Assembly: GCA_016192455.1 (NCBI GenBank)
Contig: JACPUC010000019.1
Coordinates: 1 to 64,000, forward strand
Direction: 5' to 3'
DNA length: 64,000 nt
From: Candidatus Tectimicrobiota bacterium
GTDB taxonomy: Bacteria; JACPUC01
This document shows, piece after piece, positions 46,266-52,735 of the stretch (position 1 is the stretch's first letter; each line of letters starts with the position of its first letter). The notes under the pieces are model-generated. The model was given only the letters and a program-made list of their open reading frames with translations. It was not told the origin of the DNA and ran no database searches. The position numbers and the translations under genes are program-made.

Positions 46266-46880
46266 TCACGCATTGATGACGAAGGGGGCGCGATCGCGCT
46301 GGCCAGGCTGGTTGGCTTGCTCGGGGAGGCGGATGCCGGCAAGCCCGTTGCGCACGAGGAGGCGTCCATCGCGGGTCAGGTGGAGAGGGCTGCGATAGAG
46401 CGGTTCGGGCGCCGGCCCTTTGACCACATCACCCTCAAGGTCGAAGACCGAGCCATGGCAGGGACAGCGGAAGACCTGCTCGCTGGGGGTCCAGCGCGGG
46501 GTGCAGGCAAGGTGGGTGCAGATGGAGACGAGCGCGTAGAGCCGCGCATCACGCCGCACCAACCACACCTTCTGGTCCTCCACCCATTGGGTGTTCACGG
46601 TGTCGGCCGGAAGATCAGCGACGGGGGCGGGACTGAAGGTGGCCGGCGGCTCGTCGACGACGTTCGGCTTCATGAACCGCACCAGGTTGTAGCCGGAGAT
46701 GAGGGAGGCAAGAGAGAGCCCCCCGAAGCCGGTCCACAGGCAGAAGGTGCGTCGATCAAGCTGGCGTGCGGCATTCCCGCGGGGAGAGGAATCCCCTCCC
46801 TGCGGAGACGCCTGCTCCGCTCCCTCCGGCCGAGAGTTAGTTGGTGTTGGCTCTCTGCTCACGACCCGCTCCTCTAGCAC
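46266..46880 (-). CDS. Rieske [2Fe-2S] protein
   Basis: A 204-residue Rieske subunit. The N-terminal anchor carries a Tat-like LDRRTF before a hydrophobic stretch (GGLSLASLISGY). The cluster ligands are C121 and H123 (CTHLAC) and C139 and H142 (CPCHGS), with C126/C141 for the disulfide. It transfers electrons from quinol at the cyt b site to the multihaem cytochrome. First gene of the complex operon (Rieske, b, b', octahaem c, monohaem c). Confidence 0.95.
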   Translation of the reverse strand: MLEERVVSREPTPTNSRPEGAEQASPQGGDSSPRGNAARQLDRRTFCLWTGFGGLSLASLISGYNLVRFMKPNVVDEPPATFSPAPVADLPADTVNTQWVEDQKVWLVRRDARLYALVSICTHLACTPRWTPSEQVFRCPCHGSVFDLEGDVVKGPAPEPLYRSPLHLTRDGRLLVRNGLAGIRLPEQANQPGQRDRAPFVINA

Positions 46881-47853: not shown

Positions 47854-48456
47854 TCAAGTCTCTTCGAGGAGCTGCTTGATGAAACGATTGATGCCGGGAG
47901 AGGTCCACTCCCGCGGGCCCACGGCGACGGCCACGAGGCGACCGCGCTTGTCGATCAGGAAGCTCTCCGGATGGCCGCTGATGCCGTAGTCTTGCGCCAC
48001 CGCGCTGCGCGTGTCGAGGAGGCTGCGGAAGGTCCAGCCGCGGCGCTGCATCTGCCGCGTCACCATCCCCTCAACCTCACCGACATTGACGGCGAGCACC
48101 ACGAACCGCGGATCATCTTGAAACGTTTCCATCAGCTTTTGAATTGAAGGAGACTCCTTCAAGCATGACTGTCACCAGGTGGTCCGAAAGGTGAGGAAGA
48201 CCACCTTGCCGAGGAAGCTCTGCAGGTCCACGCGGACGCCTCTGGTGTCCTGCAGCGAGAAGGTCGGCGCCGGGGAGCGCGGCTCATACATCTTCATGAA
48301 CACCGCGTAGCCTTCGGCGTTGCGCCGCAGGAGCGCTTCACGCTCGACCACCTTGCGCGCCAGCAGAACCAGGAAGATCAGGATCAACCCCCCCATGACC
48401 CAGACGCCGTAGCCCCGGAAGACGCGCACCGCAGCTTCACCCGTCTTAGTAATCAA
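47854..48456 (-). CDS. Selenocysteine-containing TlpA/CcmG-like thioredoxin (U-x-x-C)
   Basis: Read through an in-frame UGA (48172-48174), this is a 200-residue membrane-anchored thioredoxin. It has a TM segment at about 17-33, then PAPTFSLQDTRG and LGKVVFLTFRTTW-Sec95-QSC98-LKESPS. UGA replaces exactly the first active-site Cys of the W-C-x-x-C motif. Downstream are VVLAVNVGEVEG, the redox-fold helix and cis-Pro YGISGHPESFLIDKRG, all in the same frame. The TTG at 48456 follows AGAGGAG and overlaps ccmH by 11 nt; GTG at 48429 is an alternative. A 7-bp hairpin with a 5-nt loop follows the UGA. By family and context it would reduce apocytochrome or CcmH thiols in the periplasm. Confidence 0.85.
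48144..48162 (-). promoter_or_regulatory. Candidate bacterial SECIS hairpin in the thioredoxin mRNA
   Basis: Directly downstream of the UGA, the transcript reads UUGAAGG-AGUCU-CCUUCAA: a perfect 7-bp stem and 5-nt loop with G at loop position 2. The loop begins 16 nt after the UGA, the lower edge of the spacing known for SelB-dependent elements. Confidence 0.7.
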
Positions 48457-48940
48457 GGTGGTGCAACTCCTCTTGTAAACGTTGGCGGTACATGGCCAGG
48501 TGGGCCTCCTGCAGCTCCGTCGTGGAGGCCTTGGGGGACGCATCGGGGCTCTCCCTGCGACGCTTGTTCGACCACAGGAAGAGCACACTGCTGAGCAGGA
48601 ACCCGGCCCCCACCAGGACCGCGAACGGGGTCACCCAGGCGGTGAGATCGAAGCCCCGCTTGGGGGGCGCCGCCAGGATCTTGGCGCCGTACTGGTCGAC
48701 AAAGTAGGCGATGATCTGTTCCTTCGTCTGACCGGCGGCAAGTTTCTCCGTGATGAGCGCCTTGGCCGGCACCGCCCACCCCTGCATCTCGCAGATAGCG
48801 AGAACCTTGTTGCAGCCGCACTGGCAGATGAGGTCGGCGGCCACGTCCTGCATAGTCACCCCTGCGCTCGCCGCATGCCCTGCCCCATGGAGGAGCAGGA
48901 ACGCGACCAAGAGGATGCCGAGCAGCGTGACGGTTCTCAT
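48446..48940 (-). CDS. ccmH: Cytochrome c maturation protein CcmH
   Basis: A 164-residue exported thiol protein with signal peptide (LLGILLVAFLLLHGAGHA), the paired-cysteine motif LICQCGCNKVLAIC, and a C-terminal membrane helix (VTPFAVLVGAGFLLSSVLFLW). CcmH keeps apocytochrome CXXCH thiols reduced and presents them to CcmF. The ATG at 48940 overlaps the zinc-ribbon gene stop by 4 nt; its 3' end overlaps the selenocysteine thioredoxin start. Confidence 0.9.
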   Translation of the reverse strand: MRTVTLLGILLVAFLLLHGAGHAASAGVTMQDVAADLICQCGCNKVLAICEMQGWAVPAKALITEKLAAGQTKEQIIAYFVDQYGAKILAAPPKRGFDLTAWVTPFAVLVGAGFLLSSVLFLWSNKRRRESPDASPKASTTELQEAHLAMYRQRLQEELHHLDY

Positions 48941-49512
48941 GGGCGCGACTCCTCTGCTGGGGCTGCGGCGGTGTTCCGAGCGAGCGCGGCGCCGCAAGCG
49001 GAGCAGAGCGTTTCACTCCTTGGCGCCAGGCGCCCGCAGCTCCAGCACGAAATTCGACATGGCGCGCCGCACTGCGTGCAGAAAAAGTTTCCGGCCCGCA
49101 GGAGATGGCCGCAGGAGCGGCAGCGGTCGGCCGGCGCGGCGAGCGACTCCATCTGCGCACCCGCCTCTGCCGAGAAGGCCGGGACGCCCGCCCCTCTCCG
49201 CTCTTCCCCTCGCCGGCGGCGTCGATCCCCCTTGAACTCCCGCGGTCGGGCATCCAGCTCCTGGAGGATCGCAATGGCTGCCTCGGATTGCGCCGCGTGC
49301 AGCTCCGCGAAGTCTTCCGCCGAGAGCTTGCCGGTGAGGTGATCGAGCTCCAGATCCTTCAGGGCCAGCAGGGCCGCCTCCTTGCGCTCCCACAGCTCAT
49401 CGGCGGCGCCCCGCCGGGAGCTCTCCTTGGCGCCCCGGAACCAGCGCGAGAAGGGGTAGCTCACCACGCCGGCCGCAACGATGATGATGGCAAGCTCAAG
49501 CAACACGATCAT
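48937..49512 (-). CDS. CcmI-like membrane protein with C-terminal double zinc ribbon
   Basis: A 191-residue protein. One N-terminal membrane helix (LLELAIIIVAAGVVSYPFSRW) and a helical segment with KEAALLALKDLELDHLTGKLS resemble the CcmI N-terminal part. The C-terminal ~60 residues hold four Cys pairs (CRSC, CTQC, CWSC, CSAC), a double zinc ribbon. Start ATG overlaps the ccmF stop by one base. CcmI proteins act as apocytochrome chaperones with CcmF and CcmH; here the TPR domain is replaced by zinc ribbons. Confidence 0.78.
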   Translation of the reverse strand: MIVLLELAIIIVAAGVVSYPFSRWFRGAKESSRRGAADELWERKEAALLALKDLELDHLTGKLSAEDFAELHAAQSEAAIAILQELDARPREFKGDRRRRRGEERRGAGVPAFSAEAGAQMESLAAPADRCRSCGHLLRAGNFFCTQCGAPCRISCWSCGRLAPRSETLCSACGAALARNTAAAPAEESRP

Positions 49513-51581
49513 CAGGCGCCCTCCTCGGAAGCGTTGGGGAAGCCGTAGGCGCGCGAGCTTCGCAGCGCCGCGGCAGGGCTGGCGAGCGCCGGCGCAGCCG
49601 CGTCCCGCGCCGGCTGCCGACCCTGCGACGGGGCGCGCGCGCCACGCAGCTCCGGCACCGGCAAACCGGTGATGAGGGTGCCGAGGATCCAACCCAGGCC
49701 ACCCAGCCAGAGCCAGGAGATGAGGGGGTTGATGACCGCTTTCACGACGATGCGGTCGCGCTCCATCTCAGCCAGGATGACGTAGAGGTCCTCCTTCAAG
49801 GTTGAGCGCACCGCCACCTCGGTGGTGCTTTGCTCTTGCCGGAAGTGGTACTCCTTGCGGGGTTTCAGCGTCCCGAGCGAGGTCCCCCCGCGCCAGACGC
49901 TCAGCGTCACCTCCAGGACCTCCTTCCCCGGCTCGCGCCAGAGGTTGACGGTGTCAAGCTGCAGGCGGTACTCCCGCACGCTCAGGGACTCGCCCCGCAG
50001 CAGCCCAGCTTGGTGCTCCGTCTGGAAGGCGCTGCCGGTGATCCCCACGACCATCATGAGGACGCCGAGGTGGATGACGTAGCCGCCATAGCGCCGGCGG
50101 TTGCGCCCGAACAGCCCGATGAGCGCCTGCGCCCAGCCCGCCCCCTTCATCTGCTGGCGAGCCCGTGTGCCGCGGTAGAACTCGATGATGATCGAGGCGC
50201 CCACGAACGCCGCAAGGCCGAAGCTTATCACCACAAAGGGGTCGCGCAGCCCGCCCAGCACCATGCCGAGCAGCGCCAGCCCGCCCAGCAGCGCCGGCGG
50301 CACGAGGTTGCGCCGCAGGTTGCGGGCCGTCGCCTTGCGCCAGGCGATGAGCGGGCAGATGCCGGTGAGCAGCAGCATGGCCAGGAAGATCGGCGCCATC
50401 ACCTGGTTGAAGAACGGCGGCCCCACCGTCAGCTTCACGCCGCGCACCGCCTCGGAGATGAGGGGGAAGATCGTCCCCCACAGCACCGCGAAAGCGCCGC
50501 CGACGAGGAGCAGGTTGTTGAACAGGAAACTGCTCTCCCTCGAGATGAACGAATCGAGCTGGTGGGCGCTCTTCAGCAGCGGCAGCCGCCACACCAGGAG
50601 GCTCAACGAGCCAAACAGCACAACGCCCATGAAGCCCAGGAGGAGCGGTCCAACCGAGGCCTGCGCGAAACTGTGCACCGAAGTAATGACGCCGCTGCGG
50701 GTGAGGAAGGTGCCGAACAGCGTCAGCGAGAAGGTCGCCATGATGAGCGCCATGTTCCAGACTTTCAGCATCCCCTTCTTCTCCTGGATCATCACCGAGT
50801 GGAGGAAGGCGGTGCCGGTGAGCCAGGGCATGAAGGAGGCGTTCTCCACCGGGTCCCACATCCAGAAGCCACCCCAGCCCAACTCGTTGTAAGCCCACCA
50901 CGAGCCAAAGAGGTTGCCTATGCCCAGGAAGAACCAGGCGAAGAGTGTCCAGTTGCGCGTGCGGCTCACCCACTCATTCCCCACCTTCCCCGCCAGCAGG
51001 GCGCCGATGGCAAAGGCGAACGGAACGGTGAAGCCGATGTATCCCAGGTACAGCGTCGGCGGATGGAAGAACATGCCGGGGTTCTGCAGCAAGGGGTTCA
51101 AGCCGCGGCCATCAGCCGGCACTTGCGCCGCAAGCTCGAAGGGGTTGCTGCTGAAGTTCGTCAACGCCAGGAAGAAGGTCAGCACCGTGAGCAGCACCGG
51201 CAGCACGTAGGGGAAGATGTCGCTCGGTCGCCGCTCGTTCTGCACGATCACCACCACGACCATGAGCGACAGCACCCACACCCAGAAGAGGAGGGACCCT
51301 GCGAGACCGCCGTAGAACGCCGACAACGTGTAGACCAGCGACAGATCGCGGCTGGTGTAGCTGGCGACATACTGCAGGGAGAAGTCCCGGGTCACCAGGG
51401 CATAGATGAGCGCCGCCGAGGCCACGCTGAGCAGGACGCCGAGCATCACGCCGGCGCCAAGGGCGCTGGCGGTGGAAGCCCCGTGCCGGCGTTTGGCGCC
51501 GAGGACCGACACCCCCAAGCCATAGAGTGCCAGCAGGAACGCGAAGAAGAGAGCAAAGCGGCCAAGGTCGATCATGCGCAC
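49512..51581 (-). CDS. ccmF: Cytochrome c haem lyase CcmF
   Basis: A 689-residue polytopic membrane protein that attaches haem to apocytochrome c. The periplasmic haem-binding WWD domain is clear at about 227-252 (GSWWAYNELGWGGFWMWDP). Conserved HPP and LHSVMIQEKKGML histidine segments flank it. About 15 hydrophobic helices and a large periplasmic segment near the C-terminus match the family. The start may be M1 or M3. It lies between the small membrane gene and the CcmI-like gene in one cluster. Confidence 0.95.
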   Translation of the reverse strand: MRMIDLGRFALFFAFLLALYGLGVSVLGAKRRHGASTASALGAGVMLGVLLSVASAALIYALVTRDFSLQYVASYTSRDLSLVYTLSAFYGGLAGSLLFWVWVLSLMVVVVIVQNERRPSDIFPYVLPVLLTVLTFFLALTNFSSNPFELAAQVPADGRGLNPLLQNPGMFFHPPTLYLGYIGFTVPFAFAIGALLAGKVGNEWVSRTRNWTLFAWFFLGIGNLFGSWWAYNELGWGGFWMWDPVENASFMPWLTGTAFLHSVMIQEKKGMLKVWNMALIMATFSLTLFGTFLTRSGVITSVHSFAQASVGPLLLGFMGVVLFGSLSLLVWRLPLLKSAHQLDSFISRESSFLFNNLLLVGGAFAVLWGTIFPLISEAVRGVKLTVGPPFFNQVMAPIFLAMLLLTGICPLIAWRKATARNLRRNLVPPALLGGLALLGMVLGGLRDPFVVISFGLAAFVGASIIIEFYRGTRARQQMKGAGWAQALIGLFGRNRRRYGGYVIHLGVLMMVVGITGSAFQTEHQAGLLRGESLSVREYRLQLDTVNLWREPGKEVLEVTLSVWRGGTSLGTLKPRKEYHFRQEQSTTEVAVRSTLKEDLYVILAEMERDRIVVKAVINPLISWLWLGGLGWILGTLITGLPVPELRGARAPSQGRQPARDAAAPALASPAAALRSSRAYGFPNASEEGA

Positions 51582-51817: not shown

Positions 51818-52132
51818 TTACATGGAGGCGAGCGTGAGGCGAGGAGGTCGGAAGAAGGAGGTGTGGAGGAGGCGCACCCGGGGTGGATGGGCAAGCCACC
51901 GCAACCGGCTGGCGAACAGCGGCCCCAGCACCAGGGGTAGCGCCGCTACGGCAATGCAGCACCCTGCTGGCGCGGGCGTGGACATATGCCCGCTCTCTTG
52001 TAACGTCAGGAGACAGATGTTGAGCAACACCAGGAAGACGCAGAGCGCCAGGATGAGACCCCGCTGCTGGTGGTGGATACGGGCGAGTCTACGCATGCTG
52101 GATCGGCTATCCTGAACTGGAAAGGTGTTCAT
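51818..52132 (-). CDS. Small membrane protein of unknown function
   Basis: A 104-residue protein with two hydrophobic segments (LILALCVFLVLLNICLL and CCIAVAALPLVLGPLFA). The ATG at 52132 follows AAAGGA. No known domain. It lies between the DUF1573-like selenoprotein gene and ccmF on the same strand, so it may assist the same process. The 236 bp to ccmF hold no further gene. Confidence 0.5.
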   Translation of the reverse strand: MNTFPVQDSRSSMRRLARIHHQQRGLILALCVFLVLLNICLLTLQESGHMSTPAPAGCCIAVAALPLVLGPLFASRLRWLAHPPRVRLLHTSFFRPPRLTLASM

Positions 52133-52204
52133 GTCCTTTAAGATGCGCCGCTGGTCGCAGCGCCTCCTTGGTTCCAGCAACGTCCTCAATGCCGCGTCAC
52201 CGTC

Positions 52205-52735
52205 TCAGGGCACGATGAAGTTCCCCTTGATGCGCAAGCGCGTCTCCGGTTGGCGCGGATCGTTCGATTTGATCACCGCTTCGAAGAGGTGCGGTCCTTC
52301 CATCCCCTTGTGCATCATGACGGAGGTGGTCACGGTTCCAGAGAAGCCGGGCTGCAGGGTGACCTCACGGATCACCATCTCCGGCGGTCAGCACCCCTCG
52401 AGCACTTTCATTTGGATCTTCTGATCGCGCCCGAACTCATTGGTGATGCGCAGCTCCGCATCGCCGACGTTGCGGTACACGAACGCATAGGGAGCCAGAC
52501 GATCAATGTACACCTTGCCGAAATCGACGAACTGGGTGTCAAACTCGATCTTCGGCCCCAACGCCACCGCCGGCCCGCCGGGCGCCGCGGCAAGGGGCGC
52601 GAGCTGCGCCGCGGCAGCCGCCCCCGCCGACCAGCTCAGGGCCACGACAGCGGACAGCAGGAGCAGGCCGCACACCGCCACGACGATGCGCGGGAAGCGT
52701 TCCAAGACTCTAGCTCGCGCGCGGCAATCTCTCAT
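52205..52735 (-). CDS. DUF1573-like exported selenoprotein with Cys-Sec motif
   Basis: Read through UGA at 52388-52390 this is a 176-residue protein. It has an N-terminal hydrophobic signal/anchor (VVAVCGLLLLSAVVALSW), then a DUF1573-type Ig-like domain: VDFGKVYIDRLAPYAFVYRN, a MKVLEG-C115-Sec116-PPE turn, LQPGFSGTVTTSVMMHKG, and SNDPRQPETRLRIKG. The 60 codons after the UGA complete the domain, so the UGA is internal and falls where DUF1573 proteins have their conserved cysteines. A 7-bp hairpin follows at 18 nt. It is first in the cluster with ccmF/ccmH and a second Sec protein, and may pass electrons to or from it. Confidence 0.82.
52358..52376 (-). promoter_or_regulatory. Candidate bacterial SECIS hairpin in the DUF1573-like mRNA
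   Basis: The transcript reads GGUGAUC-CGUGA-GGUCACC: seven pairs (one U-G) and a 5-nt loop with G at position 2. The loop begins 18 nt after the UGA, in the allowed window and very like the element in the thioredoxin gene. Confidence 0.65.

Follow-up and report, generated by a model that had tools for sequence, protein, structure and literature searches.

The gene at positions 52205..52735, on the minus strand of the window (the whole 64,000-nucleotide stretch of DNA analysed here), very probably encodes a genuine selenoprotein that belongs to a subfamily distinct from the OS_HP2 proteins. On the sequence evidence, SelB and tRNA-Sec would read the UGA at codon 116 as selenocysteine, aided by a bSECIS hairpin just downstream, and the product would be an exported, membrane-anchored protein with a single Ig-like (DUF1573/HYDIN-type) domain bearing the motif Cys-Sec-Pro-Pro. 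A preliminary description of this DNA had proposed a selenoprotein, and that reading has gained support from the selenocysteine machinery of the genome, 45 UGA-containing sequences, cysteine homologues, a covarying bSECIS and conservation past the UGA. The gene would thus add a well-supported selenoprotein subfamily, one with members in dozens of uncultured bacteria from soil and groundwater.

The read-through product and its predicted fold

The extent given for the gene in the preliminary description was exact, and the strand, which it had left unstated, is the minus strand. The read-through translation starts at the ATG at 52735, runs MRDC...VLEGC-U116-PPEMVIREVTLQPGFSGTVTT...SNDPRQPETRLRIKGNFIVP and ends at a natural TGA (52207-52205), giving a product of 176 aa. 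The only other in-frame UGA (TGA at 52390-52388, minus strand), and the single one inside the gene, is codon 116, which lies within VLEGC-U-PPEM and would place Sec116 in a GC-U-PP motif. As had been described, the frame stops at this UGA directly after VLEGC, and 60 sense codons separate it from the natural stop; translation with the standard code cuts the protein short at residue 115. The further claim that a DUF1573-like domain is completed past the UGA also held. The HYDIN_VesB_CFA65-like_Ig family (PF22544) matches residues 61–172 of the read-through product (52220..52555, minus strand) with 31.9 bits, above its cut-off of 25.5, and DUF1573 itself (PF07610) matches residues 63–172 with 22.4 bits, just under its cut-off of 26.1; PF07610 also matches 14/14 members of the family alignment A3 at E values up to 0.1, the best being 1.2e-13. 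Because both matches reach past residue 116, the domain spans the UGA.

An AlphaFold2 model of the protein (mean pLDDT 84) consists of an N-terminal hydrophobic helix at residues 16–43 (52607..52690, minus strand), which may be an export signal or a membrane anchor, followed by an Ig-like sandwich. Since this helix is predicted and the N-termini of three homologues resemble lipoboxes (LAACS, LTGCS and LAAAC), the GCUPP protein is most likely exported and membrane-bound. The modelled fold is PapD/ASH-like, with 2qsv as the best structural match (Z 12.3, 106 aligned, rmsd 3.5), and is that of the HYDIN/ASH/PapD-like domains 2qsv, 2e6j and VesB (4lk4), none of which, unlike the GCUPP protein, has been described as a selenoprotein. 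The signature of the subfamily is a hairpin of the form M141-x3-M145-x-G147-x-H149-x-F151 (52283..52315, minus strand), the named residues being invariant columns in alignment A3. In the model the Cys-Sec loop (114–118) and the Met/His loop (140–146) each lie between successive strands, and it is possible, from the conserved residues, that Met141, Met145 and His149 form the second half of a metal site.

Conservation of the UGA and of the downstream hairpin

After removal of duplicates, TGA occupies the codon of Sec116 in 45 distinct sequences (42 with CUPP, two with CUPA and one with CUPS), which come from Rokubacteria/Methylomirabilota, Chloroflexota, Nitrospinota and the window's own lineage; because so many distinct sequences keep it at codon 116, a chance UGA is ruled out. 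Three distinct homologues have the motif GCCPP, with TGC replacing TGA, and in the sampled genomes the Sec forms are far commoner than the Cys forms. Both the conserved UGA orthologues and the Cys-Cys homologues, which the preliminary description had proposed looking for, therefore exist. Conservation after the UGA, another of its suggested checks, is of the protein type: among members with 60–98% identical tails, nucleotide differences downstream of the UGA number 801, 561 and 1814 at codon positions 1, 2 and 3, an excess at position 3 that is as expected if the sequence is translated.

These sequences come from several searches. The first homologue search, over about 190 genomes, turned up relatives in other genomes whose frames contain a single internal TGA, at the Sec116 codon, and a single-sequence scan of genome contigs for relatives gave none. 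With a four-sequence profile, 13 loci were detected across the GTDB species genomes, among them loci in Nitrospinae, Chloroflexota and Rokubacteria, and the 14-row profile from alignment A3 was then used for phylum-wide searches. In 95 genomes of Rokubacteria/Methylomirabilota (the phylum of locus L049) 21 loci, in 21 of the genomes, combine a single TGA with the motif; in 400 sampled genomes of Chloroflexota (the phylum of L047) 19 loci fit the motif, so that about 20 of the 400 genomes carry the gene, the count of 19 leaving out L092 and L095, which have one TGA each and fall outside the motif pattern. Four Chloroflexota genomes (G316, G431, G376 and G432) contain two GCUPP genes apiece, with one TGA in each. 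Viral contigs and plasmids yielded no relatives. L054 and other loci lacking the GC[U/C]P motif encode unrelated Ig proteins or DUF1573-like proteins of the ordinary kind, and were rejected. L051 carries the label Deltaproteobacteria; it is near-identical to Rokubacteria sequences and its genome has no SelA. Since misbinning of the contig is the probable explanation, L051 was left out as evidence for another phylum.

The hairpin GGUGAUC-CGUGA-GGUCACC lies where the preliminary description had placed it, at 52358..52376 on the minus strand, with a loop (52369-52365) that begins 18 nt past the UGA and has G at its second position. In the alignment, columns 21–27 pair with columns 33–39; the loop that they enclose has five bases, and 45/45 sequences have G as the second of these. 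Over 10 distinct rows, 98.6% of cells are paired and double changes occur in five of the seven stem pairs; the paired percentage, the number of double-changed cells and the covariation score were each reached by none of 500 shuffles, and the number of double-changed pairs by six of them. Over 43 distinct rows, pairing is 95%, compared with 80% when shuffled and 14–67% in slid registers, and double-changed cells number 47, whereas none of 1000 shuffles, which carry no correction for relatedness, gave more than 23. In a null that exchanged synonymous codons and preserved the amino acids, an average of 5.16 of the seven pairs formed (highest null mean 5.58) as against the observed 6.67, so the protein sequence accounts for much, but not all, of the stem pairing; the amino acids encoded there are of either the VVGxTT or the TIGxMV type, and switch together with the stem. 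Prediction of a bSECIS, also put forward earlier as a check, thus came out in favour of the element: the hairpin covaries, RNAalifold predicted the same hairpin unprompted from the alignment, and the three Cys homologues, with 4, 2 and 0 of 7 pairs (28.6%), lack it. For the window's own 43-nt segment, the minimum-energy structure from ViennaRNA differs from the bSECIS hairpin, and as single-sequence RNA folding gave mixed outcomes, the alignment evidence was preferred. Scanning for promoters yielded no informative result.

The window's genome (4.46 Mb, 88% complete) contains tRNA-Sec (75.5 bits), SelB (366 bits) and SelA (596 bits), all of which exceed the curated cut-offs. SelA is present in most genomes bearing the GCUPP/GCCPP gene; of the 12 genomes reached through loci, four gave no SelA match, and three of these four carry the Sec form. 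The SelA-negative genomes include a small assembly of 1.7 Mb, one that is probably a mixed assembly and one genome of 3.3 Mb, and the missing SelA likely reflects genome incompleteness. The window is known from one genome sequence only, as would suit a true stop or an assembly error in a truncated gene or pseudogene, but the same TGA in 45 distinct sequences from several phyla, the protein-type conservation of the tail and the covarying hairpin make that reading extremely improbable.

Gene neighbourhood and putative function

Between the selenoprotein gene and the gene for CcmF there is a small membrane-protein-like ORF (51818-52189), for which no Pfam match was found. CcmF (cytochrome c-type biogenesis; 49512..51581; PF16327, 206.6 bits, and PF01578, 138.1 bits) is followed by a CcmH-like cytochrome c biogenesis protein (48446..48940; PF03918, 64.5 bits) and, two genes downstream of CcmF, by a TlpA/redoxin-like protein (47854..48459, with a putative start; PF00578, 73.8 bits on the read-through product), whose gene has an in-frame TGA of its own (48174-48172) in WUQSC, of the UxxC type, and which is probably the first selenoprotein candidate of the preliminary description. 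A Rieske iron-sulfur protein (46266..46880; PF00355, 51.2 bits) lies further along. All of these are on the minus strand, and genes for cytochromes b and c share that strand in the window. At 30 loci the same-strand neighbours include a NapH-like polyferredoxin (18), a COX2-type cupredoxin with the CuA motif (16), a PCYCGC protein (14) and cytochrome c (12), counts that are inflated by closely related Rokubacteria loci, in which the cupredoxin is fused to the polyferredoxin. CopA-type ATPases occur, on either strand, at 11/30 loci. In these uncultured bacteria, selenium is thus linked to genes of copper and cytochrome assembly.

The PCYCGC proteins (OS_HP4, PF13798) are likewise exported, are found in the same genomes and often in the same cluster as the GCUPP gene, and in eight of the 10 genomes checked have their own TGA at the UxxC site, matching the CYCXC/OS_HP4 family. 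They form a sequence family unrelated to the GCUPP protein, and are genomic partners, not relatives; with this partner selenoprotein family in the same clusters, the two families can be tested together. In one Nitrospinota genome (L140, G201:C260) about 2.5 kb separate the PCYCGC-family and GCUPP selenoprotein genes, which share a strand. The window's own genome encodes a PCYCGC-family protein with an in-frame TGA in HGAGUGTC (L139, G000:C19:11393-11635), likely, on this sequence, a third selenoprotein of that genome.

Our current working hypothesis is that the vicinal Cys-Sec pair, probably together with the Met141/Met145/His149 hairpin, forms an extracytoplasmic redox or Cu(I) soft-metal site, and that this putative site serves the maturation of the neighbouring CuA-type cupredoxin and cytochrome c proteins. 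Gene context and the conserved soft ligands point to such a copper/cytochrome maturation role, to which we would give slightly less than an even chance; the sequence data do not tell copper handling from thiol reduction or electron transfer. A likeness to the Sco and PCu(A)C copper chaperones for CuA is proposed only in so far as a periplasmic soft-ligand site would stand beside CuA-type proteins. No sequence match between these chaperones and the GCUPP protein was found, and whereas Sco has a thioredoxin fold, that of the GCUPP protein is Ig/PapD-like.

One alternative is that the protein is a thiol/selenol reductase of cytochrome c maturation, acting on the CXXCH of apocytochromes or on carriers and having no metal role. 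The CcmF, CcmH and Sec-containing TlpA genes of the window speak for this, as do the CcmF, CcdA and CcmG-like genes at Rokubacteria loci and the placing of Cys members directly behind a TlpA-like gene (L045) and near ResB/CcsA-like genes (L050). We nevertheless regard it as the less probable of the two, if a serious contender, for most Chloroflexota loci contain cupredoxin, polyferredoxin and PCYCGC genes, not Ccm genes, and a reductase leaves the invariant Met/His hairpin unexplained. Alternatively, the conserved same-strand cluster of COX2-type cupredoxin, NapH-like protein and cytochrome c could mean that the protein is an electron carrier or a subunit of a CuA-cupredoxin/polyferredoxin/cytochrome complex, and no maturation factor; yet the protein has no cofactor-binding domain and the window has no such cupredoxin cluster near the gene, and we consider this quite unlikely. 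To return to copper/cytochrome maturation, its most specific form is speculative and, taken whole, rather unlikely: a selenolate copper site made of Cys-Sec and the Met/His residues would act with a PCYCGC/CYCXC partner to mature CuA-type and cytochrome c proteins, in a selenium-dependent copper pathway of the cell envelope. If true, this would give a widespread subfamily an Ig-like domain that holds a selenolate copper site.

Relation to OS_HP2

Selenoproteins of the DUF1573 type, with the motif UGC, have already been catalogued as OS_HP2 (PMC9312934, PMC13188914), and the 2026 catalogue, which comprises 119 prokaryotic selenoprotein (sub)families, treats a different Sec position or motif as a separate subfamily (PMC13188914). 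The Cys-Sec-Pro-Pro DUF1573 subfamily is absent from that catalogue (PMC13188914), and a literature search found no published report of a CUPP-type selenoprotein. The preliminary description had known of no Cys-Sec DUF1573 protein, and with respect to the subfamily its view stands, but DUF1573 selenoproteins as such are known and the novelty is therefore at the subfamily level: what is new is the Cys-Sec-Pro-Pro subfamily with its shifted Sec and distinct gene context.

An exported DUF1573-type Ig domain with Sec in the same loop is common to OS_HP2 and the GCUPP protein, and this shared fold, together with weak matches of 14/14 alignment A3 members to the OS_HP2 profile NF041425, would suit a diverged member of OS_HP2. 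However, the window protein scores 21.4 bits against a cut-off of 100, and tested members of the GCUPP family with a match score 21 to 37 bits, whereas two UGC-type controls, L022 and L030, pass with 104.8 and 102.2 bits. Membership of OS_HP2 is also at odds with the Sec position, with the single-domain architecture of the GCUPP proteins and with the invariant Met141, Met145, Gly147, His149 and Phe151 hairpin, which is missing from the UGC-type relatives seen, and we think it very unlikely. L022 and L030, OS_HP2-type DUF1573 selenoproteins from two other genomes, have about 465 residues and are several times longer than the GCUPP proteins. As to the shifted Sec of the separate subfamily that we favour, Sec comes first in the UGC motif of OS_HP2 and one residue later in C-U-P-P; when the stretch from the motif to the conserved Pro-Gly that follows is lined up by eye with no gap, the OS_HP2 Sec falls opposite Cys115 and the glycine opposite Sec116.
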